Source: Kribbella voronezhensis (lineage in GTDB: Bacteria > Actinomycetota > Actinomycetes > Propionibacteriales > Kribbellaceae). From it: a stretch of DNA of 64,000 nt. Where the stretch lies: positions 4,843,403-4,907,402 of the forward strand of contig NZ_SOCE01000001.1 in the NCBI RefSeq assembly GCF_004365175.1, written 5' to 3'. The notes under the pieces are model-generated. The model had not been told where the DNA came from and did not search any database. It saw nothing but the letters and a program-made list of their open reading frames with translations. Positions 38,935 through 51,183 of the stretch are shown here, piece after piece. Position 1 is the stretch's first letter. Each line of letters starts with the position of its first letter. The translations under genes and the position numbers were made by a program.

Positions 38935-39645
38935 CTAAGCCTGGCCGGCTTGTTCTTCTGGGGTGGATTTGCGGACTACCAGGCGGGTCCAGGCGCCGAC
39001 GTAGACGCGGTCGTCGCCGGTGAGTTCTCGGCGTTGGCCCGGGGGGATCGGGTCTTCGGGGAGGGGGTCGGAGGCCTGGCCGACGAAGGTGCCGTTGGAG
39101 GACTGGAGGTCTTCGACCCACCAGCGCTGGCCGTCGGTGGTGAGTTGGGCCTGGCGGCGGCTCACGCCGGTGTCGTCGCCGCAGTCGATCTCCGGGGTGA
39201 TCCCGCGGCTCTTCGAAGGCCTGCCGACCAGCACGCTCTTGGCCGTGATCGGGATGACCACCGGCAGCCCGGGGGAGGGGCAGGGGTCGTCGCTCTGCTG
39301 TACGGCGTACCAGTCGGGGTCGACCCAGCGCTCCACGACCCAGTCAGCGACCTCTTGCGGCGCGGGTGGCACCGGTGGGGGCGTACCGAGGTCCAGCGGC
39401 GAGGCCGGCCGTGGCATGGTGCCGGTGGTGAAGTCGTAGCCGCAGTTCTCGCAGAACAAGGCGTCTGCGGCAGCAGGCTCGGAACAGTTCGGGCATGCCT
39501 GGGTCGTCGCCGCCGGTGCCGCCACTGCGGGGGCCGGGACGGACGCGGCGGCCGGGGTGGCCGCAGCACCGATCGGGAGTCCACAGACGTCGCAGTAGTC
39601 CGTGGAGACGGACGGGTGTCCGCTCGGACAGGTGACTGAGCTCAT
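38935..39645 (-). CDS. FHA-domain protein with double zinc ribbon
   Basis: Protein of 236 residues. Two zinc-ribbon motifs occupy the N-terminus (CPSGHPSVSTDYCDVCG and CPNCSEPAAADALFCENCG), followed by a Pro/Ala linker and, from about residue 125, a forkhead-associated domain that binds phosphothreonine peptides. Its hallmarks are VLVGRPSKSRG, DTGVSRRQAQL and SSNGTFVG. It is the last gene of the ten-gene minus-strand cluster and overlaps the vWA gene by four bases. The FHA domain is probably a reader of phosphorylation by the kinase encoded in the same cluster, and the zinc ribbons resemble those on that kinase and on the phosphatase, suggesting a shared docking mode. Confidence 0.9.
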   Translation of the reverse strand: MSSVTCPSGHPSVSTDYCDVCGLPIGAAATPAAASVPAPAVAAPAATTQACPNCSEPAAADALFCENCGYDFTTGTMPRPASPLDLGTPPPVPPAPQEVADWVVERWVDPDWYAVQQSDDPCPSPGLPVVIPITAKSVLVGRPSKSRGITPEIDCGDDTGVSRRQAQLTTDGQRWWVEDLQSSNGTFVGQASDPLPEDPIPPGQRRELTGDDRVYVGAWTRLVVRKSTPEEQAGQA

Positions 39646-40919
39646 TTCTTCACCCTGGTGGTCTTGGTGGACGCGGTGTCGAGCGCCATCTCGTCAGCCT
39701 TCTCGACGCTGCGCTTCAGTCGAACGGTGCCGGTGTCCTGGTCGTCGATCTCGACCACCTTCCGCAGCCGCGAGGTGGCTTCCTCGTTGCCGGTCTGGGC
39801 GGCGAGCTGGACCGCGCGGCCGAGCTTGGTGGTCGCGGTCTCGGTGTCACCGGCGGCCTTCGCGGCCAGGCCCTCCTGGATCGCGTCGGCGAGCTCGGTC
39901 TGGCCGGTGTAGTGCGCGACCTCCGGGCTGATCCGGGTGGTGAGCGCCTCGTCGTTGGACCACAGCGCCTTCACCAAGCCTTGCGCGACGACCTGGTCGC
40001 CGACTGCGAGCTGGACCCGGGCGGCGAGTTGCTCCTGCCCGATTCCCTTGGCAGCAAGGCGAATCGCGACGTGGTAGTCGCGCGACTCGTCACCCCAGGA
40101 GCCGGTCGGGTACGCACTGGTCAGCGCGTTCACCTCCGTACGCCGGGAGGTCAGGTCGTCGACGGTCGGAGCGACCTGGCGGACGAACAGCACCTGTGCG
40201 CCCTGCGGAGCCCAGACCCGCATGTCGGCACCGGCGACACCCTTGCTCATCGCCTGCTTGATCAGCTTGGAGAACTCCGCGGCGAGCTGGTCCGGGGCGG
40301 GGATGATGTCGACCGTACCGAGCAGCGCGGTCGCGATCCGGCGGACCTCGGCGACCTGCCAGTTGACGCCGACACCGCGGCAGTCGCACTGGAACTGACC
40401 GGTGACGGCCTCGATCGTCGCGGACAGCACCTCGGGCGTCTCGTGCTGGTTCTCGCCGTCGGTGAGCAGGATCGCGTGCTTCTGCGACAGCGACGGCACG
40501 GTCGCGAAGACCCGGGCGGCGAGCCGCAACCAGGTGCCCATCGCCGTACCGCCGTCGGCGTAGAAGCGGGCGACGGCGTCCTTGGCGGCCTGCCGGGTGA
40601 ACTGGTCCATCCGCACCATCACCGGCTCGGGCGACGGCGGGAAAGCGAGCTGGGCCCGGTCGTTGCCGGAGATGACGGCGAACCAGACGCCGTCGAGGAT
40701 CTGGTCGAGCGCGGTCTGGGCGGCGTACGCCGCGGCCCGGATGCCCTCGGCGCCCATCGAGCCGGAGGTGTCGACGATGATGATCTCGCCGGCGTCACCG
40801 CTGCCGGACTGGCCGGCCGCACCCGCGCCGGTACAGGACACCGTGACGATCGCGTGCACGTCGGTGCCGCCGTCGGGCAGGAACTCGTTCTGGTACACGG
40901 TGGCGGAGAACTCGGCCAT
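39642..40919 (-). CDS. von Willebrand factor A (TerY-like) protein
   Basis: Protein of 425 residues. The vWA domain starts around residue 45 with the metal-ion (MIDAS) motif IIIVDTSGSMGAEG and continues with LLTDGENQHET. A beta-rich middle part follows, and the C-terminal quarter (from about 330) is helical and TPR-like (GLAAKAAGDTETATTKLGRAVQLA). There is no signal peptide. In tellurite-type stress loci, vWA proteins form conserved sets with a PP2C phosphatase and a kinase; the next genes here encode exactly these. It probably acts as a metal-dependent scaffold. It is separated from the phosphatase gene by 33 bases and overlaps the FHA gene. Confidence 0.9.
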   Translation of the reverse strand: MAEFSATVYQNEFLPDGGTDVHAIVTVSCTGAGAAGQSGSGDAGEIIIVDTSGSMGAEGIRAAAYAAQTALDQILDGVWFAVISGNDRAQLAFPPSPEPVMVRMDQFTRQAAKDAVARFYADGGTAMGTWLRLAARVFATVPSLSQKHAILLTDGENQHETPEVLSATIEAVTGQFQCDCRGVGVNWQVAEVRRIATALLGTVDIIPAPDQLAAEFSKLIKQAMSKGVAGADMRVWAPQGAQVLFVRQVAPTVDDLTSRRTEVNALTSAYPTGSWGDESRDYHVAIRLAAKGIGQEQLAARVQLAVGDQVVAQGLVKALWSNDEALTTRISPEVAHYTGQTELADAIQEGLAAKAAGDTETATTKLGRAVQLAAQTGNEEATSRLRKVVEIDDQDTGTVRLKRSVEKADEMALDTASTKTTRVKK

Positions 40920-40952
40920 CTCAGGCGTCCTTTCTACAAAGCTGACGGGCGA

Positions 40953-42026
40953 TCACAGACGAGCCAGTGCGACGGTGATGTTGTCCTGGCCGCCCTGGGC
41001 GTTCGCCCAGTCGACCAATGCGGACGCGGTGGCCAGAGGCTCGCCACGGTTGGCCGCAGCGGTCTGACGTACGAGGTCGGCCAGTGGTGCCGCCTCGGAG
41101 CAGTAGTTCCACAGGCCGTCGGAGCAGACCACGAGCCATCCCGGGCCGTCCACCTTGACGGTCGTGGTGCGGGGAGTGTGGTCCGGTGCGTCCTTGCCGA
41201 GCCAGCGGGTGATGGCGTGGGCCTGCGGGCCGGTCTCGGCCTGCTGCCGCGGTACGCCGGTGGCGATGAGCTCGGCGGCCCAGGAGTCGTCCACGGTGAG
41301 CCCAACCGGCTCCGCGTTGTCCGGGAACCAGTACGCCCGGCTGTCACCCACCACGCCCGCCACCAGCAGGTCGCCCTCGAGGACGACGGCGACGAACGTG
41401 CAGGAAGCCGGATTCGGGCTGTCCGGGCTGGTGTTCGCCAGTACTGCGTCGTTCGCGGCGTCCGCGGCTGCCTTCAAGCGGGCGACCACCGCGCTGTTCC
41501 GCGACGACTCGGTGCCCATCCCTTGTGCATGACCAGCGGCCAGCACTTCGCGAGCGGCACGCGCTGCGGCCAGGCTGGCCACGTCGGAGTCCAGCGAGGA
41601 GCTCACGCCGTCGCAGACCACGAGCTGTGCCCTACTGCCCGGCTCGGCGTCGGCGGAGACGGCCACGGCGTCCTCGTTGCGGCTGTGCCGGATGCCGCGA
41701 TCGCAGACGGCCGCGACCCACGGCGCCGGCTGCTCGCTGAAGTGGTCGCGCGGCTTGGCTGCCTTGGTCCCACAGGTCTGGCAGTAGCTGTCGTCACCGA
41801 CGACGCCGCCACAGGACCGGCAGGGGCCGGGCGGAGCCTCCGCCGAGCGGGCCGCGGACGGGTTGAGCTCCACAGTCGGCTCGGTGTCGGTGTCGATCGC
41901 GGCCGTCGCTGGAGTGGCAGCAGGCGACAGTTCGGCCCCGCAGGCCTCGCAGTAGCGGTCGGCGGCGCCGATCGGCCCGCCACAGCTCGGACAGGTCGTA
42001 CTCGTCGTGCCGGTCGTCGAAGTCAT
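40953..42026 (-). CDS. PP2C-type Ser/Thr phosphatase with double zinc ribbon
   Basis: Protein of 357 residues. Two N-terminal zinc ribbons (CPSCGGPIGAADRYCEACG and CRSCGGVVGDDSYCQTCG) precede a PPM/PP2C phosphatase domain from about residue 105. The metal-binding motifs are AAVCDRGIRHSRNEDAVAV, LVVCDGVSSS, VGDSRAYWF, VVCSDGLWNY and GGQDNITVAL. The start is the ATG at 42026, overlapping the kinase stop by four bases. It is the natural antagonist of the kinase encoded next to it, removing phosphate from Ser/Thr. Cytoplasmic; no membrane segment, unlike PstP of mycobacteria. Confidence 0.93.
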   Translation of the reverse strand: MTSTTGTTSTTCPSCGGPIGAADRYCEACGAELSPAATPATAAIDTDTEPTVELNPSAARSAEAPPGPCRSCGGVVGDDSYCQTCGTKAAKPRDHFSEQPAPWVAAVCDRGIRHSRNEDAVAVSADAEPGSRAQLVVCDGVSSSLDSDVASLAAARAAREVLAAGHAQGMGTESSRNSAVVARLKAAADAANDAVLANTSPDSPNPASCTFVAVVLEGDLLVAGVVGDSRAYWFPDNAEPVGLTVDDSWAAELIATGVPRQQAETGPQAHAITRWLGKDAPDHTPRTTTVKVDGPGWLVVCSDGLWNYCSEAAPLADLVRQTAAANRGEPLATASALVDWANAQGGQDNITVALARL

Positions 42027-44377
42027 CGCAGTGTCCATCCTCGAACCTCGTTGGCCTGGTCGACCAGGGCGATCCGTTCCTCCCGGCTGGGCGCTTGCCC
42101 GGCCAGCTCACGGTAGGCCGCCTCCAGGCCGTCCCGCAGTTCCGGTTCGGTGGCGGCCCGTCCGGCGATGTGCACGCCGGGCTGGGGGCCGTTGCCGAGG
42201 ACCTCGTCCAGCGCGGTCCGGAACACGTTCGCCGACAACTGGGCCCGGTCGGCCGGGTCGATCGTCAGCGACTCGATACTGCCCATGGCCTCCGCGAGGG
42301 CGGGGAGTCCACGTCCTGATCCTGCCAGCAGACCGGCTCGCTGGCGACGAGCCCGGATGTACGCGCCGCTGGTCGGGGGTACCAGGTCGACCGCCGCGAT
42401 GGCCCCGTCCAGGTCGCCGCGGTCGGAGCGGATCGCGGCCAGGCCGAACGCGGACGGTGCGATGTAATTGGCGTCGGTCCGGGCACAGGTGATGTAGAGC
42501 CCTTCGGCCACGTCGTACTCGCCGCTGAGCTCGCAGGACAGGGCCAGCGCGAGCTTCGGTGCCAGCTCACCGGGGACCTGGCCGTAGACGGCGTTGAAAG
42601 CCGACTGGGCAGCAGCGTTGTCTCCACGGGCCAGCGCGACGAGCCCGGACATCCAGACCGCGCGCCACTCCCACGGGTCCTCCGCGAGCAGGTCCGACAC
42701 CGCGGTGTCGACCATGTCGTACTGCCCGGACTCCAGTGCCGCCAGTGCGATCTCCAGCAACACCTGCGGCGACTGCTCCGGTGCGTTGACCAGCAACTCC
42801 AGCCGCGCGGCCGGATCCGGGACGCTCACCGTCTTCAACCAGCCGGCCTGCTTGTCGGTCTCGTCCGGCAACAGCGAAGGCAACCGCCGCCACGGGGGAG
42901 CGGCCTCACCCAGCCCGCCGGCCAGGTCGCCGGGGCTGCCGAACAGCAGCGACGACGCGGAATGCTGCGCTGCGCCACTCTTCTGCTGCGACGCGACCAC
43001 TTCACGCAGTACGCCGAGCAGCTGGACCCGGAACTCGTCGGCGGACACGAAGCGGTCGGCCGGGTCCTTCGCGCACGCCTTCAGCAGCAAGCGGTACACC
43101 GAGTCGTGCTGCTGGAAGAGCGGGACGTCGGCCACCGGCGGCAGCGAGGACAGGTACGTCGACTGGTAGCCGCGGAACTCCATCGCCAGCACGGTCAGCG
43201 TACGGCCGAGGGTGAAGATGTCGGAGGCGACCGACGTACCGACCTCGGGCACTTCCGGTGCCTGGTAGCCGACCGTGCCGTAGATGGCGGAGTCCGCGTC
43301 GTCGATACGGCGTACGCCGCCCAGGTCGATCAGCTTCACCGCGTCGCCGACCTGGATGATGTTGTCCGGCTTGAAGTCGCAGTAGACCAGGCCGAGGTCG
43401 TGCAGGTAGGAGAACGCGGGCAGGATCTCCAGCATGTAGGCGATCGCCTGGTCGATCGGCAGCGCGTTGTACCGGCCGCCGTTGGCCTCCATCCGCTGCT
43501 TGAGCAGGGTTTTCAGCGACGTACCGCCGACGTACTCCATCACGATGTAGCCGGCGCCGTCGTGGCTGACGAAGTTGTAGATCTCGACGATCAGCGGGTG
43601 CTCGACCCGGGCCAGGAACTGCTGCTCGGCGATCGCGGCCGCGACGGCGTCGGGGTCCTCGGAGTTCAGCAGGCCCTTGAGCACGACCCAGCGCTTCTGG
43701 ACGTTCAGGTCCCGCGCCATGTAGATCCAGCCGAAGCCGCCGTGCGCCAGCGCGCCGGCCACCTCGTACTGGCCGCCGACCAGATCGCCCGCCTTGAGCT
43801 TGGGCGAGAACGAGAACGGGCTGCGGCACTTCGGGCAGAAGCCCTCGGTGCGGCCCGGCTGATCGCCGCGGGACCGGCCGACCGGGTTGCCGCACTTCGG
43901 GCAGTTGCGACGGTCCTCGGGAACCATCGGGTTCGCCAGGATCGCTTTGCTCGCGTCGATCGGCGGGATCGGCGGGACATGGGTCAGACCGGCACCCAGC
44001 CGCGCCCCGCGCAGCCGGGTGGACGACGTACCGAGCCGGCGGGTCAGCTTGGAGCCGGCCTGGGTCGCGCGAGCCGAGCCGAGGGGGGTGGAGGCCAGCC
44101 GGTTGGAGGCGCGGGAGACGGTCGACGGCGAGCTGATCGGCTCGTGCGCCGGTGAGGCGGCGGCTCCACCAGGAGCGCCGCAGACGTCGCAGTAGCCGTC
44201 GACGATCGTGCCGGAGCAGCCCGGCTGAGCACAGGCGCCGCTTGCGGGAGCACTGGCAGCACTGGCAGCACTGGCCGCACTGGCTGGGGCCGCTGCCGCG
44301 GGTGAACCGCAGACGTCGCAGTAGCCGTCAACGATCGAGCCGGTACAGCCTGGCTGGGTGCAGGCGATGTTCGTCAT
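42023..44377 (-). CDS. pknG: PknG-like Ser/Thr protein kinase with zinc ribbons and TPR domain
   Basis: 784-residue soluble kinase. Residues 5-67 hold two copies of a zinc ribbon (CTQPGCTGSIVDGYCDVCG and CAQPGCSGTIVDGYCDVCG). A third, rubredoxin-like pair (CPKCGNPVG ... CPKCRSPF) at about 159-185 matches the redox site of mycobacterial PknG. The kinase domain (about 204-465) has the ATP Lys in WVVLKG (234), catalytic YCDFKPDN (Asp 334) and metal-binding IDLGG (Asp 351). The C-terminal part from about 520 is helical and TPR-like. The domain order matches PknG, which controls 2-oxoglutarate and glutamate metabolism through GarA/OdhI in mycobacteria and corynebacteria. The GlnH and GlnX genes upstream fit this assignment. 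Confidence 0.93.
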   Translation of the reverse strand: MTNIACTQPGCTGSIVDGYCDVCGSPAAAAPASAASAASAASAPASGACAQPGCSGTIVDGYCDVCGAPGGAAASPAHEPISSPSTVSRASNRLASTPLGSARATQAGSKLTRRLGTSSTRLRGARLGAGLTHVPPIPPIDASKAILANPMVPEDRRNCPKCGNPVGRSRGDQPGRTEGFCPKCRSPFSFSPKLKAGDLVGGQYEVAGALAHGGFGWIYMARDLNVQKRWVVLKGLLNSEDPDAVAAAIAEQQFLARVEHPLIVEIYNFVSHDGAGYIVMEYVGGTSLKTLLKQRMEANGGRYNALPIDQAIAYMLEILPAFSYLHDLGLVYCDFKPDNIIQVGDAVKLIDLGGVRRIDDADSAIYGTVGYQAPEVPEVGTSVASDIFTLGRTLTVLAMEFRGYQSTYLSSLPPVADVPLFQQHDSVYRLLLKACAKDPADRFVSADEFRVQLLGVLREVVASQQKSGAAQHSASSLLFGSPGDLAGGLGEAAPPWRRLPSLLPDETDKQAGWLKTVSVPDPAARLELLVNAPEQSPQVLLEIALAALESGQYDMVDTAVSDLLAEDPWEWRAVWMSGLVALARGDNAAAQSAFNAVYGQVPGELAPKLALALSCELSGEYDVAEGLYITCARTDANYIAPSAFGLAAIRSDRGDLDGAIAAVDLVPPTSGAYIRARRQRAGLLAGSGRGLPALAEAMGSIESLTIDPADRAQLSANVFRTALDEVLGNGPQPGVHIAGRAATEPELRDGLEAAYRELAGQAPSREERIALVDQANEVRGWTLR

Positions 44378-45540
44378 GTCGTCCCTCCTGTGGCGCGACC
44401 GGAGTGCGGGTCGGCGGCAAGACTGGTGTCCAGGTAGGCCTGGTAGGCCGCGACGAGCGCGCCGAGCCGGATCAGGTCCACTGGTTCGGTGTCGATCACG
44501 TCGTGGCCGCGCCGGTAGAGCTCGGCAAGGTCCTCGGTGGTTCCACTGGTCCGCGCGACGCTGCCCGCCTTCACGCTGTAGGCGTCCAGCCGTGCGGCCA
44601 ACTCGTCGCGGCGTTCCAGCGCGGCGCCGTACGCCGACTGCGCCTGCCCGAGCGCACGCCGTACTGCGTCCAGCCGCGTCAGGTACTTCTCCAGCTCAGC
44701 AGGCGTGTTCGGCACCGGCCCGAGCGCAGTGACATCCGGTACGCCGAGGCGCGGCGCCGGGGTGACCGCAGCGACACATCGATCGGCGAGAGCCCGTACT
44801 GCGACCCCCTGCGCTTCCAGCTCGGTCCGTACTGCGCGGGCGCGGGCCACGTCGGCAGCGCGCTCCCGGCGGGTGGCGCCACCGACGATCAGGTCCCGTT
44901 CGGTGCGGGCGGCATCCATCTCGAGCGAGCCGATCAGGCCGCCGACATCCGCGCCACGCTTGGCCCGCTCGGTCAGGTCGGTGACCCGGCGGTCCAGGTC
45001 GTGATGGGTCGCGATCGCCTCGTTCCGGCTGATCGCCGGCTCGTTCTTGACCAGGTCACTGATCCGTTCCACCTGGGCGCGAAGCTGCCGCAGCCGCGCG
45101 GCGAGATCCGCGTCGCCCGGCTCCAGTGCCAGCCTGGACCGGAGCGTGGCGGCCAGCGCGTCCGACAAAGTGCATGCCTCAGGCAACGAAACGGCGAGCG
45201 ACCCGCTCGCGCCACCGGTGTCCAGACCGCCCCAGATCAGCGTCGAGATCCGCTCGGTCTCGGTCGCGCCGACCCGGCCGGAGTCCCAGGTGACGAGGAT
45301 CAGTTCGTACCGATCCGACACTGCCTTCCAGACCGCCATCGCCAGGACGACGTCGGCGCTGAGCGCGTCGGCGTCCTCGGCCTGCAGGGCGGCCTGGTCG
45401 AGCTCGTCCAGTTCGGCCCTGCGGCGGTCCCGCCACGTCCCCAGGGCATCGAGGAACGCCAGCAGATCCTTCGCGGGGATGCTGCTGCCGATCCGCCCTG
45501 GCGGCGGAGGCGCGACTGCCGTCGGAGTACGAACTGTCAT
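44374..45540 (-). CDS. Coiled-coil protein of the PknG cluster, unknown function
   Basis: Protein of 388 residues, almost entirely helical with long charged heptad-like stretches (ADLAARLRQLRAQVERISDLVKN, HHDLDRRVTDLTERAKR, ALGQAQSAYGAALERRDELAARLDAY). There are no membrane segments and no catalytic motif that I recognise. The start is the ATG at 45540, overlapping the glnH stop by four bases; its own stop overlaps the kinase start. Position between the sensor lipoprotein and the kinase suggests an adaptor or scaffold that links membrane sensing to the kinase. M. tuberculosis has no equivalent between glnH and pknG, so this is an added component. Confidence 0.8.
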   Translation of the reverse strand: MTVRTPTAVAPPPPGRIGSSIPAKDLLAFLDALGTWRDRRRAELDELDQAALQAEDADALSADVVLAMAVWKAVSDRYELILVTWDSGRVGATETERISTLIWGGLDTGGASGSLAVSLPEACTLSDALAATLRSRLALEPGDADLAARLRQLRAQVERISDLVKNEPAISRNEAIATHHDLDRRVTDLTERAKRGADVGGLIGSLEMDAARTERDLIVGGATRRERAADVARARAVRTELEAQGVAVRALADRCVAAVTPAPRLGVPDVTALGPVPNTPAELEKYLTRLDAVRRALGQAQSAYGAALERRDELAARLDAYSVKAGSVARTSGTTEDLAELYRRGHDVIDTEPVDLIRLGALVAAYQAYLDTSLAADPHSGRATGGTT

Positions 45541-46502
45541 TCGGGGACTCGTCCGTAGACAGCCTTGGGCGGAGCCGGCGCGGGACCGAGATCGGCCGCG
45601 AACCACTTGTTGTACGACGCCTTCCAGCGGCCGTCGGCCTTGATCTGCTCCAGGACACCGTTGACGAACCGGACGAACTCCGGGTGCTTCTTGGACATCC
45701 CGAGGCCGTACGGCTCGTCACTGAACCGCTCGCCCTTGATCACCCGCGCGTACGGGTCCTGCGCTGCGTCGCCGGCCAGGACGGTGTCGTCGCCGCTGAT
45801 GCCGAAGACCTTGCCCTGCTGGAAGAGCACCAGGCAACCGCCGTCCGTGTCGGCGGTGACCGCCTTGAGGAGCCGGAAGTTCTTCCGCAGGTTCGTGTAA
45901 CTGGTCGAGCCGGTCGGGGTACAGATCGCCGTGCCCGGGGGCAGGTCGTTGAGGCTCTTGGCGGTCGAACTCAGCGGCACCAGCGACTTCTGGCCGGAGC
46001 GGTAGTACTCCGCGGAGAAGGCGATCTGACTCCAGCGATCGCAGTTGATCGTCATGTTGCGGGCCACGATGTCGACCGAACCGTCGATGAGGACGGGCAG
46101 CCGTTGCGGACTGGAGATGACCCGCAGTTCGACCGGGACGCCGAGGGCCTGGGCAACGGCCTTGATCATGTCGATGTCGAAGCCCTCGATGTCTCCGCTG
46201 ATCGGGTTCCGGGAGCCGAGGTGCAGGCTGTCGGCCGAGACGCCGGCGATCAGCCGGCCGCGCTGCTTGATCTGCGCCATGTAGGAGCCGGCGGGGAACT
46301 GGTCGGGCGAGGGGAGGGCACCCTCGGGGGCGTAGGAGGCCAACGCGTTGTCGCATTTCAGCGGTAGCGTGCCAGGGGCCGGAGGCGTTTCGACCGGAAC
46401 CGGCTTGGTGGGCACCGGGGTCGCCTCGTAGCTGCTGGAGCCGCAGGCCGTCAGGGCGAGCAGTGCGGCGGCCACACCGGCCGCGATCAGCTGCTTCTTC
46501 AT
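45537..46502 (-). CDS. glnH: Glutamine-binding-type lipoprotein (GlnH)
   Basis: Extracytoplasmic solute-binding lipoprotein of 321 residues. The signal is MKKQLIAAGVAAALLALTAC with lipobox LTAC, then a Pro-rich linker. The type II binding fold shows RLIAGVSADSLHLGSRNP, GFDIDMIKAVAQALG, DIVARNMTINCDRW and DGRWKASYNKWF. No amino-acid permease or ATPase gene lies nearby, so it is a sensor rather than a transporter component. The M. tuberculosis GlnH protein binds Asp/Glu/Asn and signals through GlnX to PknG; the same gene order is retained here except for the inserted coiled-coil gene. The start is supported by the 4-base overlap with glnX. Confidence 0.92.
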   Translation of the reverse strand: MKKQLIAAGVAAALLALTACGSSSYEATPVPTKPVPVETPPAPGTLPLKCDNALASYAPEGALPSPDQFPAGSYMAQIKQRGRLIAGVSADSLHLGSRNPISGDIEGFDIDMIKAVAQALGVPVELRVISSPQRLPVLIDGSVDIVARNMTINCDRWSQIAFSAEYYRSGQKSLVPLSSTAKSLNDLPPGTAICTPTGSTSYTNLRKNFRLLKAVTADTDGGCLVLFQQGKVFGISGDDTVLAGDAAQDPYARVIKGERFSDEPYGLGMSKKHPEFVRFVNGVLEQIKADGRWKASYNKWFAADLGPAPAPPKAVYGRVPE

Positions 46503-47830
46503 CGATATTCCCCCAGTCGCTGAGACATGCCCCAGGCCACCAGCAGTGCGGCGACGATCCCGATGGGCAGGCCGAGCCAGCCGATCGGGGGCAGCCCCTT
46601 GCGGGCGTCGGACAGTTCGGTGCTGACCTTCGTGCTGGTCACGCCCAGGCTGGCGGCCGACGCCTCGTCGAAGTCGCCGAAGATCGTGCCCGCATCGGTG
46701 CCGGTGTTCGTGCCGACCGACCTGGCCACCGCGTCGCCCCACTTGCCCTGCTTGGCGTCCAGGTCGCGGATCGTGGCGTGGATGGCCTTGTACTGGTTCC
46801 AGGGCGTCTGCACCGCGGGGCTGGTCGCAGCCACGATCGCGAGCTGCTTGTCGACCTCGGCCGCGGACTTGGTCCAGGCGGTCTGGAAGGCCTCGCCGGA
46901 ACCGCGAGCGATCAGGGTGAGGCTCTCGTTGGACTTGGCGTCGTACGCCGCGATCCGGGCTCGGGACAGCGCCAGCGTGTCGGCGTACGCATGTCCTCTG
47001 GTGTCCTTCGCCTTGCTGCCCGCGCTCGACAGCGCGGCACCGCCGACGACCATGGTCAGCAGCACCAGTGCGGCTGCGGCGGCGATCGGCAGGTTCAGGT
47101 AGCGGTGCGTCCGCTTCGCCAGCCACCACAGGGCGTAGGCGAGCACCAGCAGCGTGACCAGACCGCCGATGATCAGCCAGTAGTTGCCGTTACCGATGCC
47201 GTCGAACTCGGTGCCGACCCGGGACTCGTTGGCTTTGACCAGTGCGTCGAGCAGCGGCAGCGAGTCCTCCTGCAGCGAGGCGCTGGCGTCCTTGAGGTAC
47301 TGCGAACCGATCGGCAGGCCCTGCCGATTGTTCGCGCGGGCCTGCTCGACCAGACCCTGGTAGGTCAGGAGCGTGGTGTTCAGCTGGCCGAGTGCGGCCT
47401 GGTCGGCCGGCTGCGCGGTGGCGGCCTCGGTGATCAGCTTGGAGGCCTGCGCCATCGAGTCGACGAAGTGCTGTCGCTGGGCGGGCGGCTCGAGGCCGCC
47501 GACCAGGAAGGCGTTGGTGGCGTCGGCGTTCGCGCTGACCAGGTTCGTGTGGATTCCCTGGATCCGGACCAGCTGGGCAGTGTTCGCTTCCGCGCGCTTC
47601 AGAGCGCCGTCGGACTCCCGGAACCCTTGCGCCGCGGCGAGACCGAACAGGACTGCCATCGCGGCCGAGATGATGAGAACGAGCCGCATCCGGCCCGGCG
47701 TGCCGGCGAACCAGGTCTGGATCGCGCCGCTCGGTCGCGCGCGCCGCGGCGTACCGGCCGGGGCGGTGGCCACGGACGGTGGAGGCGGCGGCGACCAGAT
47801 GACTGGGGGCGCGCTGGTGGTTTGGGTCAC
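46499..47830 (-). CDS. glnX: GlnX-like membrane protein
   Basis: Protein of 443 residues with four membrane helices: MRLVLIISAAMAVLFGLAAA (about 48-68), YWLIIGGLVTLLVLAYALWW, LPIAAAAALVLLTMVVGGAA and WLGLPIGIVAALLVAWGM near the C-terminus. Two extracytoplasmic helical domains of about 130-150 residues lie between helices 1-2 and 3-4; they resemble the four-helix sensory bundles of chemoreceptors (IHTNLVSANADATNAFLVGG). The Pro-rich N-terminus and the C-terminus are cytoplasmic. In mycobacteria GlnX relays ligand binding from GlnH to PknG. It overlaps both neighbours by four bases. Confidence 0.88.
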   Translation of the reverse strand: MTQTTSAPPVIWSPPPPPSVATAPAGTPRRARPSGAIQTWFAGTPGRMRLVLIISAAMAVLFGLAAAQGFRESDGALKRAEANTAQLVRIQGIHTNLVSANADATNAFLVGGLEPPAQRQHFVDSMAQASKLITEAATAQPADQAALGQLNTTLLTYQGLVEQARANNRQGLPIGSQYLKDASASLQEDSLPLLDALVKANESRVGTEFDGIGNGNYWLIIGGLVTLLVLAYALWWLAKRTHRYLNLPIAAAAALVLLTMVVGGAALSSAGSKAKDTRGHAYADTLALSRARIAAYDAKSNESLTLIARGSGEAFQTAWTKSAAEVDKQLAIVAATSPAVQTPWNQYKAIHATIRDLDAKQGKWGDAVARSVGTNTGTDAGTIFGDFDEASAASLGVTSTKVSTELSDARKGLPPIGWLGLPIGIVAALLVAWGMSQRLGEYR

Positions 47831-49308
47831 GCCTGCTCCTCTTGCTCGGCCTCGGCCTCGACTGCTTCGGCTTGCTCGGCCTTCGTCTCGGCCTCGGCTG
47901 CTTCGGCTTGCTCGGCCTTCGTCTCGGCCTCGGCTGCTTCGGCTTGCTCGGCCTTCGTCTCGGCCTCGGTCTCGGCTGCTTCGGCGGGTGCTTCGTCGGT
48001 CAGGTCCTCAGGGAGGATCTGACGCAGCTGATCGGTACTGGGTGCCGTCACGTCGCGAAGTCGCCAGGCATGGCGGCCGATCGCCGCCTCCAGCATGTTG
48101 CGGGCGAACCGGCCGTTGCCGAACGAGCGGTTCCGCGGCGTCGACGCCAGGATCACCTTGAACTGGTCCAGCGCGTTCGGTGTCAGCTCGTAGTCGGCTG
48201 CCTCGGCGAGCCCGGTCAGGATGTCGGTGAGTTCGGAGTCGGAGTAGTCCTCGAACGCGATCGTGGTCCGGAACCGGCTGGCCAGTCCGGGGTTCGCGGC
48301 GATGAAGTCCTCCATCGGCTCGGGATACCCGGCGACGATGACGACCAGGTCGTCGCGCCGGTCCTCCATCTCCTTCACCAGCGTGTCGACGGCCTCCCGG
48401 CCGTACTGGTCGGCGCCCAGCTCGCCGGCGGTCAGGCTGTACGCCTCGTCGATGAACAGCACCCCACCAGCGGCAGAGGCGACCACCTCGGCGGTCTTCG
48501 TTGCCGTCTGCCCCAAATAGCCGGCGACCAGCTCGGAGCGGTCGATCTCGACCAATTGGCCCTTGGAGAGCAGGCCGAGTGCCTTGTAGATCCCGCTGAC
48601 CAGCCGCGCCACCGTGGTCTTGCCGGTGCCGGGATTCCCCACGAACACCAGGTGCCGGGTAATGGTCGGGCTCTTGAGCCCCGCTTCGGCACGGAGCTTC
48701 TCGACCCGCAGTACGGCGACCTGCCGGTGCACCTCGCGCTTGACGCTCGCCAGACCGGTCAGTTCGTCCAGCTCGGCGAGCAGCTCTTCGACAGTGCGCG
48801 CCGGTACCGGCTCAGCTTCGACAGCCGGCTTGGCTTCCGCCTGTACTGCGGCGGTCGGCGCGCTCGCCGTCGGGCTCGCAACCGGGCCGCCGGCCTGGAG
48901 CTGCCGTGCACCCGCTGCCTGGAGTTGCGCGGCAGCTGCGACCGACGCATTGCCGATGACGCGCATCGTGGGCTCGCCAAGGCTGCAAGCAGCAGAGGCG
49001 AGCTCAGCGAGCGCTTCGGCGTACGGGATCTTCTCTGCTGAACCCTGTGCGATCAGATCAGTCAGTACTGCGGTTGGCGCGCCACGCCATCTCCGGCCGC
49101 GTACTGCGGCGTCGAAGAAGTCCTGGGTGTCAGTGCCGGGTGATACAGCAGCCCAGTCGACCGCAGCTCCCGGAGCCGACTCGGCCAGCGCAGCAGCGAG
49201 CGACAGTCCTTCGGCTCTCGCCGACTCCTCTTGCACCCCGGCCCGAGCAGCGACGGCCAGCAGGGCCGACAGCGCTTCCTGCAGCGAAGTACCCCCCGCG
49301 CTGGTCAT
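47827..49308 (-). CDS. AAA+ ATPase of the CbxX/CfxQ type
   Basis: Protein of 493 residues. A helical N-terminal region (about 1-150) and an Ala/Pro linker precede one AAA+ module. Its motifs are LVFVGNPGTGKTTVARL (Walker A), GGVLFIDEAYSL (Walker B), VIVAGYPEPM (sensor 1 region) and SRFRTTIAF. The fold is that of CbxX and the EccA ATPases of type VII secretion, but no ESX genes are near. The C-terminus is a Glu/Ala tail built from three 12-residue repeats (TKAEQAEAAEAE). The start is the ATG at 49308, overlapping the upstream stop. It probably remodels a protein complex of this cluster. Confidence 0.9.
   Translation of the reverse strand: MTSAGGTSLQEALSALLAVAARAGVQEESARAEGLSLAAALAESAPGAAVDWAAVSPGTDTQDFFDAAVRGRRWRGAPTAVLTDLIAQGSAEKIPYAEALAELASAACSLGEPTMRVIGNASVAAAAQLQAAGARQLQAGGPVASPTASAPTAAVQAEAKPAVEAEPVPARTVEELLAELDELTGLASVKREVHRQVAVLRVEKLRAEAGLKSPTITRHLVFVGNPGTGKTTVARLVSGIYKALGLLSKGQLVEIDRSELVAGYLGQTATKTAEVVASAAGGVLFIDEAYSLTAGELGADQYGREAVDTLVKEMEDRRDDLVVIVAGYPEPMEDFIAANPGLASRFRTTIAFEDYSDSELTDILTGLAEAADYELTPNALDQFKVILASTPRNRSFGNGRFARNMLEAAIGRHAWRLRDVTAPSTDQLRQILPEDLTDEAPAEAAETEAETKAEQAEAAEAETKAEQAEAAEAETKAEQAEAVEAEAEQEEQA
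47861..47968 (-). repeat. In-frame 36-bp tandem repeat encoding the acidic tail of the AAA+ protein
   Basis: Three nearly identical 36-base units at 47861, 47897 and 47933 encode repeats of TKAEQAEAAEAE. The near identity at DNA level indicates recent slippage. Confidence 0.9.
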
Positions 49309-49889
49309 GCCCCTCCTCGTCCTGGTGGTGGTTGCAGTGGTCCTGAACCGGGTGGCAGATCCGGCGCCGGCGTCGACGGAGTGTTGCCGAGGGCAAGACT
49401 CCCACCGGTCGATCCGGTCCCGAACTTCTCCTGCAGGAACCGGCCATGGGCGATCAGCGCGGCCGCGTCGGCCCGGTTGACCGCGTCGAACACCTTGTCC
49501 ATCGTCGCGCCCAAGAGGTCCAACTGGTCGATCAGGATCATCAGCGAGGTCTTGCCGCGGTCCACCGGCCGGCTGTCCGCCCACTGCCGGGGCAGCCGCA
49601 GGTACCCACCGATTGCCTCCGGCAAGTAGTCCGTCGCGGTCGCCATCACGTTGTAGGCCTGGACGCTGCCACCGAGGTTGCCCAGCCGCGGGATGGTCTC
49701 CCGGACGATCCGCACGACGCGGGCGACCCGGGAGGCGACCACGGCCGGAACGGCGCCGTCGGCAACGAGTTGCTCCACCCGGACCAGCGCCGCCAGCAGA
49801 TCGTCGTTGGTCGGTGCGCGCGGGATCGGGGCAGGCTCGGGCTCCGCCTTGCGGCCGGTCAGCCGCGCGAAGAAGTCACCCAATGCCAT
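49305..49889 (-). CDS. Helical protein encoded next to telA (XpaC-like position)
   Basis: Protein of 194 residues: MALGDFFARLTGRKAEPEPA, then a helical core (VEQLVADGAVPAVVASRVARVVRIVRE ... TSLMILIDQLDLLGATMDKVFDAV) and a Gly/Pro-rich tail ending PPPGRGGA. TelA-family genes are often next to an XpaC-type gene, and the position and helical nature here fit that, but I cannot confirm the family from sequence alone. It overlaps the AAA+ gene start by four bases and follows the telA gene by 34 bases. Confidence 0.75.
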   Translation of the reverse strand: MALGDFFARLTGRKAEPEPAPIPRAPTNDDLLAALVRVEQLVADGAVPAVVASRVARVVRIVRETIPRLGNLGGSVQAYNVMATATDYLPEAIGGYLRLPRQWADSRPVDRGKTSLMILIDQLDLLGATMDKVFDAVNRADAAALIAHGRFLQEKFGTGSTGGSLALGNTPSTPAPDLPPGSGPLQPPPGRGGA

Positions 49890-49923
49890 GCAGTACCGTC
49901 CCCCGCTTCACGGTCCCGGGCTC

Positions 49924-51183
49924 TCAGCGACCGAGGTCGAGGGTGCCGGCGACGACCCGCTGGTCCTGCTGGGCGACCCGGTCCAGGTAGCTGCGGGACT
50001 TGGTCACCTCGTTCTCCAGCGTGCCGATGGTGGCGGCCATGTTGTCCAGCGCCTCGACCTTGAAGGTGTCGATCGCGTCCATCGTGGCGTAGATGTTCGC
50101 GAACGCCGCCTGCAGCTGGGGCAGCCCGATGGTCGCCGAGGCGGCCTGCTGCTGGATCGCGACCGAGTTGTCCCGCAGCATCTGCGAGGTCCGCTCGATC
50201 ATGCCGCTGGTGGTCGTGTTCAGCGCGGTGATCTGGTCGAGCACCAGCTTCTGGTTGCCGAGCGCCTGGGCCACGATGACCGCCGTACGGAGTGCGGAGA
50301 CCGTGGTGGTGGAGGCGCGGTCGACGCCCTTGATCAGCTCGATGTTGTTCTTGATCACGATGTCGATGGCCAGGTAGTTCTGGATCGACACGGCCAGCTG
50401 GGTGAGCAGGTCCTGGTGCTTCTGCCGGACGTAGAAGAGAACGTCGTCGCGCAGCGCGCGGGCCTTCTCGGGGTCGGTCGCCTCCAGTTCCGCGATCGTC
50501 GCGGACAGCCGGGCGTCCAGCCGCTCGGCGACGTACACGTACTGGTTCAGCCGGCCCATCGCGTCCCAGAGCTGCTGCTTCTCCAGGTTGAGCGCGGCGT
50601 TGTCCTTGCCGAGCTCGTCCTGGCCGTCGCGCAACGAGTGCAGGATGCCTTCGAGGTGGCTCTGCGCGCTCTGGTACTTGCGGAAGTAGTCCTCGATCTT
50701 GTCGCCGAAGGGGATCATCCCGAGCAGCTTCTTCGCGCCGGTGGCTTCCTTCGGGTCCAGGTTCTCGACCGTACGGCGAAGTTCGAGCAGCGTCTTGCCG
50801 ACCGTCGATCCCTCGGACAGGCCGCCGCTGGTCAGCGCCTTCACCGGCGACTGCAGCAACCGGTTCGAGCTCTCGGCGGCGTGCCGGATGTCGACGTCGC
50901 CCATGCTGCGGACGTCACCGGCCTTCTGGGCGAACTCCGGCGAGCGTGGCTCGGCCGACATCAACGACGTCAGGAACCCGTCGACCTTGGAGTCGAGCCC
51001 CGGCAGCGCGGCCGGGTCGACCGCGGGGGCCAGACTCGGCGCTGCGGTCGCGGCGACCGGCTGTGTCGGTGCGGGCGCGGTCAGTATCAGTCCGGGCGCG
51101 GTAGCCGTCGGCGGCTGCAGTGGCGCCTGCACCGGCGCAGCCTGCGCTGCCGCGGCGCCCTGCGTGTTGTCAGCTTCGGTCAT
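49924..51183 (-). CDS. TelA/KlaA-family (toxic anion resistance) protein
   Basis: Protein of 419 residues. A Pro/Ala/Thr-rich N-terminus (about 1-75) is followed by the long helical TelA core: ELRRTVENLDP, IPFGDKIEDYFRKYQSAQSHLEGIL, YVYVAERLDARL, AIDIVIKNNIELIKGVDRAS and TTTSGMIERTSQML are typical blocks. Family members are linked to tellurite and other envelope-active stresses, but their biochemical role is unresolved. The ATG at 51183 has GGAGGGG upstream and is the first gene of the ten-gene unit, so its upstream region (51184-51303) should hold the main promoter. Cytoplasmic, no membrane segment. Confidence 0.92.
   Translation of the reverse strand: MTEADNTQGAAAAQAAPVQAPLQPPTATAPGLILTAPAPTQPVAATAAPSLAPAVDPAALPGLDSKVDGFLTSLMSAEPRSPEFAQKAGDVRSMGDVDIRHAAESSNRLLQSPVKALTSGGLSEGSTVGKTLLELRRTVENLDPKEATGAKKLLGMIPFGDKIEDYFRKYQSAQSHLEGILHSLRDGQDELGKDNAALNLEKQQLWDAMGRLNQYVYVAERLDARLSATIAELEATDPEKARALRDDVLFYVRQKHQDLLTQLAVSIQNYLAIDIVIKNNIELIKGVDRASTTTVSALRTAVIVAQALGNQKLVLDQITALNTTTSGMIERTSQMLRDNSVAIQQQAASATIGLPQLQAAFANIYATMDAIDTFKVEALDNMAATIGTLENEVTKSRSYLDRVAQQDQRVVAGTLDLGR

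Follow-up and report, generated by a model that had tools for sequence, protein, structure and literature searches.

A conserved ten-gene cluster of Kribbella voronezhensis that may couple a GlnH–GlnX receptor and a PknG-like kinase to a vWA–FHA phospho-switch and TelA

Introduction

What does a kinase of the PknG type act upon when it is encoded together with a phosphatase, a vWA protein, an FHA protein and TelA? The question is raised by a row of ten genes at positions 38,935–51,183 of a 64,000-nucleotide stretch of the Kribbella voronezhensis genome (contig NZ_SOCE01000001.1, positions 4,843,403–4,907,402), referred to here as the window. The kinase PknG of Mycobacterium tuberculosis is known almost solely through GarA/OdhI, and the operon offers a likely second, testable output. 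An initial annotation had proposed that the GlnH–GlnX–PknG sensor, the PP2C, vWA and FHA proteins, TelA, a helical protein and an AAA+ ATPase form one machine with an external amino-acid sensor, and had likened the vWA protein, phosphatase and kinase to the triads of tellurite (Ter) systems. No description of this combination of ten genes was found in the open literature, the analysis of Ter systems by Anantharaman et al. (2012) lying outside that scope. Judging from gene content and comparative sequence data, we put at about even chances the reading that the operon links a receptor in the envelope with a phospho-switch in the cytosol that resembles archaeal ArnA/ArnB, with TelA, the helical protein and the AAA+ ATPase as its effector.

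Results

Conservation of the ten-gene cluster

The interval is filled by ten minus-strand frames without internal stops, transcribed in the order TelA, helical protein, AAA+, GlnX, GlnH, the coiled-coil protein CC, PknG, PP2C, vWA and FHA (Table 1). Families were assigned with Pfam and NCBIfam profiles together with comparison to solved relatives, and transmembrane (TM) helices with a hydropathy scan; the profiles agree with the families named in the initial annotation. The four-base overlaps that it had noted at nearly all junctions are exact at seven of the nine, the other two being gaps of 34 bp (TelA–helical) and 33 bp (PP2C–vWA). The full order is also present in ten other Kribbella species, in four Nocardioidaceae-like genomes of the same taxonomic order and in one genome of another family (G010), and across these 16 loci, window included, the 4-bp overlaps are retained at nearly all of the seven overlapping junctions. 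The gene-order map was made with trimmed profiles, and, except for Kribbella and Nonomuraea, the names of families were inferred by us. Since the order recurs in other genomes with most overlaps retained, the arrangement is not due to chance, and the comparison supports the view that the cluster is a single conserved, translationally coupled operon.

Among 197 Propionibacteriales genomes, TelA is found in 92, the PknG_TPR domain in 85 and VWA_3_C in 83. The three are nearly all-or-none in any one genome, with a few exceptions, and are collinear in 81 (77 compact, 4 with inserted genes); all 38 sampled Kribbella genomes have them. The central claim of the initial annotation, that sensor, kinase, phosphatase, vWA, FHA, TelA, helical and AAA+ proteins work as one machine, is thus well supported by the conserved order, the overlaps and the near all-or-none occurrence of the genes. 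In four genomes (L146–L149), about 2 to 11 kb of genes are inserted at the loose PP2C–vWA junction; judged by eye from their translations, these have no common content and are taken as unrelated.

Outside the Propionibacteriales, the TelA–helical–AAA+ part is usually absent beside pknG. A seven-gene core of GlnX, GlnH, CC, PknG, PP2C, vWA and FHA is kept without TelA in at least three further families; it stands together in f20 (probably Streptomyces) and f19, and in the rearranged order CC, PknG, PP2C, vWA, FHA, GlnX, GlnH in f18 and in Nonomuraea gerenzanensis. Loci of the Mycobacteriaceae-like family f5 have GlnX, GlnH and PknG only. In a class-wide sample of 148 genomes, VWA_3_C lies within 10 kb of PknG_TPR in 25, and in none of the nine f5 genomes that have PknG.

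Of particular interest are clusters that have lost parts. GlnH is missing from 13 loci of family f41, from the same taxonomic order, which retain a GlnX-like protein (in L157 its frame was identified by eye); in L150 the AAA+ gene is missing as well. Two further loci, L167 and L169, retain just TelA, the helical protein, a fusion of CC with the kinase, vWA and FHA, and lack AAA+, GlnX, GlnH and PP2C. In a tree of TelA, the reduced clusters are nested within the cluster clade of the order, and, on its starred branches, the GlnH-less label must have changed three times or more. Because TelA and the helical protein persist beside kinase, vWA and FHA where the sensor is lost, no other sequence evidence argues as strongly for one machine as these loci; the same retention disfavours amino-acid sensing as its sole purpose.

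The vWA and FHA proteins

The vWA protein matches the solved structure 4FX5 of Catenulispora acidiphila over its full length (E = 1.2e-113). The three-part fold of 4FX5 (vWA, beta-sandwich and helix bundle) is that of vWA2/ArnE, a paralogue of ArnB (PMC6509490), and by homology the window protein would have the beta-sandwich and C-terminal helix bundle of the ArnB-paralogue type. There was no sequence match to ArnB itself, and VWA_3_C had no match in the control genomes, Sulfolobus acidocaldarius among them. ArnA, which combines a zinc finger with FHA, binds ArnB in a loose complex through the zinc finger; the complex becomes tight once the kinase ArnC phosphorylates the C-terminal threonines of ArnB (PMC12852372). 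The FHA protein of the cluster is like ArnA in having an N-terminal zinc ribbon and a C-terminal FHA domain, with the same CxxC-10-CxxC spacing; ArnA (8s05, 5a8i) and GarA are among its nearest solved relatives, all of them weak (E from 1.8e-4 to 5e-4).

The vWA protein ends in a threonine tail (LDTASTKTTRVKK) which, in 50 sequences, has a mean column identity of 88% compared with 63% for the vWA domain, making it the best conserved stretch among those compared; one Ser and one Thr are invariant in 50/50. Because of this conservation, the likeness to 4FX5/ArnB and the ArnA-like architecture of the FHA protein, we propose the tail as a substrate of the kinase and a ligand of the FHA protein.

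The kinase has the rubredoxin-like (PF16919), kinase (PF00069) and TPR (PF16918) domains of PknG, every one above its cut-off, with the catalytic motifs YCDFKPDN and LIDLG; its best solved relative is M. tuberculosis PknG (2pzi, E = 2e-135). The phosphatase, whose solved relatives include PstP, has the motifs CDG, GDSR, SDG and DNIT. The FHA, PP2C and PknG proteins (38,935–39,645, 40,953–42,026 and 42,023–44,377) resemble one another at their starts, which consist of Cys-rich, zinc-ribbon-like repeats with YCxxCG or similar at the end; these are perhaps a docking or metal-dependent element common to the three.

The coiled-coil protein CC

CC matched no Pfam or NCBIfam family, and its AlphaFold 2 (AF2) model is all helix, with a mean predicted local distance difference test (pLDDT) score of 84.5. 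When the Kribbella/Nocardioidaceae profile of CC was compared with that of the gene intervening between glnH and pknG in f20 and f19, hhalign aligned a 69-residue C-terminal segment with E = 1.9e-11 and a probability of 97%, compared with at most 0.2% for five control profiles. CC relatives adjoin pknG in several other families, and in L167 and L169, from two genomes of one genus, CC and the kinase form a single continuous open frame, a hint that the two proteins act directly together. The space between glnH and pknG in Mycobacteriaceae-like loci is too small for a CC gene, as expected from the initial annotation, which saw no counterpart in the M. tuberculosis locus; the gene is not, however, a local insertion, and its recurrence beside, and fusion to, the kinase indicates that CC is a core component of the cluster.

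The sensor GlnH–GlnX

GlnX, whose closest named relative is that of Kribbella monticola (98% identical), falls below the cut-off for the equivalog NF041460. The best solved relatives of GlnH are M. tuberculosis GlnH 6h2t/6h1u (E = 3e-52), in which the ligand side chain is contacted by Arg147, Thr162 and Trp232 (PMC6069109). Arg147 is kept in Kribbella, Thr162 is replaced by Asn and Trp232 by Asp, the placement of residue 232 being alignment-dependent; the backbone contacts Ser/Thr164, Arg169 and Asp250 are retained. Within the compared set, Trp occupies position 232 solely in M. tuberculosis GlnH, used as reference, and in the two sequences from f5. Because the side-chain contacts are altered, sensing of Asp/Glu is unsupported by the sequence, and the ligand is more likely to be an amino acid with another side chain. 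Glutamate or aspartate as the signal, implied by the initial annotation in its proposed check, finds no support here, nor in the 13 clusters without GlnH. In f19, extra PknG loci (L073 and L074, and also L075–L077) have divergent GlnX–GlnH pairs, with two such pairs near a single kinase in both L073 and L074; this looks like diversification of the sensor.

TelA, the helical protein and the AAA+ ATPase

TelA is the first gene of the conserved clusters. The hydropathy scan predicts no TM helix in it, placing the protein in the cytosol. The best NCBIfam neighbour of the AAA+ protein is SpoVK, followed by EccA and CbbX (TIGR02881, TIGR03922 and TIGR02880, all under their cut-offs). The helical protein gave an all-helix AF2 model with a mean pLDDT of 73, and its homologues adjoin TelA in four loci outside the cluster (L082, L083, L086 and L088). 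That of L086 (8,661–10,556) lies within a row of purine biosynthesis genes, between those for SAICAR synthetase and GATase_5/AIRS. In L087 (8,549–11,583), the genes for TelA and an AAA+ ATPase overlap as a pair, with no kinase genes nearby. Identity of the helical protein with XpaC, suspected from the Bacillus subtilis xpaC–yaaN pair, was rejected, PF10112 having no match in the gene or its homologues.

The sigma-W regulon of B. subtilis includes both yaaN (TelA) and xpaC (PMC3498285), and Listeria became more sensitive to nisin and tellurite when its telA was disrupted, as cited in PMC12791056 (Collins 2010). By analogy, the output of TelA in Kribbella may be envelope-related.

Flanking sequence

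As read from the translations, the frame upstream of the cluster is folA-like and has the same orientation, and the one downstream, which resembles an S9-type peptidase, runs towards the cluster. A sigma-70 promoter scan found no site, which is weakly informative in a G+C-rich actinomycete.

Table 1 Features of the ten-gene cluster in the window, in order of transcription, and of the two CC–kinase fusions (coordinates within their own loci)
Feature	Length (aa)	Coordinates	Strand	Remarks
TelA family protein	419	49924..51183	(-)	PF05816, 317 bits (cut-off 30)
All-helical protein	194	49305..49889	(-)	No Pfam or NCBIfam family; recurrent neighbour of TelA
CbxX/SpoVK/EccA-type AAA+ ATPase	493	47827..49308	(-)	AAA and AAA_lid_6; Walker A GNPGTGKT
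GlnX	443	46499..47830	(-)	NF058618, 322 bits (cut-off 250); four predicted TM helices
GlnH, solute-binding lipoprotein	321	45537..46502	(-)	SBP_bac_3; lipobox-like LTAC
CC, helical coiled-coil protein	388	44374..45540	(-)	Conserved C-terminal segment of ~70 aa; proposed receptor–kinase adaptor
PknG-like Ser/Thr kinase	784	42023..44377	(-)	N-terminal Cys-rich repeats, PknG_rubred, Pkinase, PknG_TPR
PP2C phosphatase	357	40953..42026	(-)	PP2C_2 and DZR; two N-terminal zinc ribbons
vWA protein	425	39642..40919	(-)	VWA_3 and VWA_3_C; intact metal-ion-dependent adhesion site (MIDAS) motif; proposed phospho-switch
vWA C-terminal threonine tail (LDTASTKTTRVKK)		39642..39692	(-)	Proposed phospho-acceptor for PknG and ligand of the FHA protein
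FHA protein	236	38935..39645	(-)	N-terminal zinc ribbons (DZR) and C-terminal FHA; proposed reader
CC–kinase fusion		L167:6395-9349	(-)	Single open frame
CC–kinase fusion		L169:9441-10820	(+)	Single open frame; TPR domain absent

Discussion

We suggest the following mechanism. The lipoprotein GlnH and the four-TM protein GlnX would form a receptor in the envelope, whose ligand is probably an amino acid and probably not Asp or Glu. CC would bridge this receptor to PknG. The kinase, opposed by the encoded PP2C, would act on the conserved threonine tail of vWA, phosphorylating it at residues that we can only presume. With its zinc ribbon as an anchor, the FHA protein would clamp the phosphorylated tail as ArnA does that of ArnB. 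TelA, the helical protein and the AAA+ ATPase may then receive the altered vWA–FHA state, and would most likely be an envelope-linked effector.

Several observations weigh against this scheme. The match of the FHA protein to ArnA is weak (E = 1.8e-4) and no better than its match to GarA. The threonine tail is absent from the vWA proteins of L167 and L169, and must therefore be dispensable in some versions. Searches of the PDB with the models of CC and of the helical protein gave no fold match at E ≤ 0.001 for either, and the literature on an envelope role of TelA, from which we argue by analogy, is from Firmicutes only. Finally, a GarA/OdhI orthologue is present in the genome, and the canonical PknG output may still be operating.

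That last point can be taken as an explanation in its own right. GlnH–GlnX–PknG would then control GarA/OdhI and 2-oxoglutarate dehydrogenase as in mycobacteria, and PP2C, vWA, FHA, TelA and AAA+ would be co-transcribed passengers or otherwise employed. GlnH and PknG are indeed close homologues of the M. tuberculosis proteins, the cascade is regarded as conserved across Actinobacteria (PMC6069109), and the GarA/OdhI orthologue (L089, G000:C1:174602-174946; 190.5 bits against a cut-off of 200) lies elsewhere in the genome beside a gcvH-like frame. This protein carries a zinc ribbon at its N-terminus, however, and its phospho-acceptor motif is altered, the ETTS of mycobacterial GarA being changed to DTAM in Kribbella and to (S/T)TAT or similar in Nocardioidaceae-like genomes. 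Nor does GarA track PknG, since in the class sample it is near-universal (141/148 genomes) and PknG_TPR is found in only 40/148. The joint gain and loss of TelA, PknG and vWA, and the loci where TelA, helical protein, kinase, vWA and FHA remain without GlnH and GlnX, also speak against passengers, and we regard this explanation as unlikely. We are similarly doubtful of two separable modules on one transcript, the seven-gene PknG/ArnAB-like switch and a TelA–helical–AAA+ module for envelope stress, linked by co-regulation alone. The families that keep the seven-gene core without TelA, the lone TelA–helical pairs (L082, L083, L086, L088) and the lone TelA–AAA+ unit (L087) are what such a division would leave, but the near-perfect co-occurrence within Propionibacteriales is not, and the reduced loci keep TelA and the helical protein with kinase, vWA and FHA despite having lost AAA+, GlnX, GlnH and PP2C.

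A conflict or defence system of the TerY-P type, with vWA, phosphatase and kinase as a stress or anti-phage switch, is brought to mind by the adjacent kinase, PP2C and vWA genes, since TerY-P modules are such triads (PMC11090510) and conflict systems include actinobacterial kinase/PP2C/vWA neighbourhoods (PMC7159879). What defines TerY-P is a kinase with a zinc ribbon or OB fold at its C-terminus (PMC11090510, citing Anantharaman 2012), and the Kribbella kinase has neither there; PADLOC gave generic kinase, ATPase, PP2C and zinc-ribbon models only; and the cluster is in every sampled Kribbella genome, apparently through vertical inheritance. On the kinase architecture and the PADLOC result we rejected this reading, which we consider highly improbable.

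If the operon does couple a receptor to an ArnA/ArnB-like switch, it supplies the probable dedicated adaptor, phosphatase and phospho-reader of PknG in other Actinobacteria, and names a single conserved threonine tail as a testable target of the kinase. It would also tie TelA, which is widespread and poorly understood in mechanism, to a kinase switch, and suggests a bacterial counterpart of the archaeal vWA–FHA switch. A wider generalisation is tentative, and we think it possible rather than probable: in most Actinobacteria outside Mycobacteriales, PknG might be chiefly the kinase of an ArnA/ArnB-like vWA–FHA switch with CC as its obligate adaptor, which in Propionibacteriales would control a TelA-based envelope machine. 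On this view GlnH/GlnX would be one input that can be exchanged for others, and GarA would be controlled through a side branch or by a specialisation that mycobacteria acquired later.

Four known systems invite comparison. The GlnX–GlnH–PknG operon of Mycobacterium and Corynebacterium, with GarA/OdhI as its output, is alike in the four TM helices of GlnX, the GlnH lipoprotein, the domains of PknG and the gene order. The Kribbella operon differs in adding seven genes, including CC between glnH and pknG, its own PP2C and the vWA and FHA partners, and in a GlnH without the Asp/Glu side-chain contacts. The ArnA–ArnB switch of Sulfolobus, with ArnC as kinase and PP2A as phosphatase (PMC6509490, PMC12852372), shares neighbouring vWA and zinc-ribbon/FHA genes, the presence of both kinase and phosphatase, a Thr-rich C-terminus and, through 4FX5, the three-part fold of the ArnB paralogue, whereas the Kribbella cluster is a bacterial operon with PP2C instead of PP2A and a kinase of the PknG type; the sequence similarity is marginal, and phosphorylation is putative in Kribbella. 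The TerY-P triad also encodes vWA, PP2C and a Ser/Thr kinase together, but the Kribbella kinase has a rubredoxin-like N-terminus and a TPR C-terminus, the vWA protein has the 4FX5/ArnB-paralogue architecture and the cluster contains neither Ter nor restriction genes, so that the Ter-type triad of the initial annotation is not upheld. The xpaC–yaaN (TelA) operon of Bacillus and Listeria likewise places TelA beside a partner gene; it differs in having no kinase operon, and the helical protein of Kribbella has no detectable similarity to XpaC.

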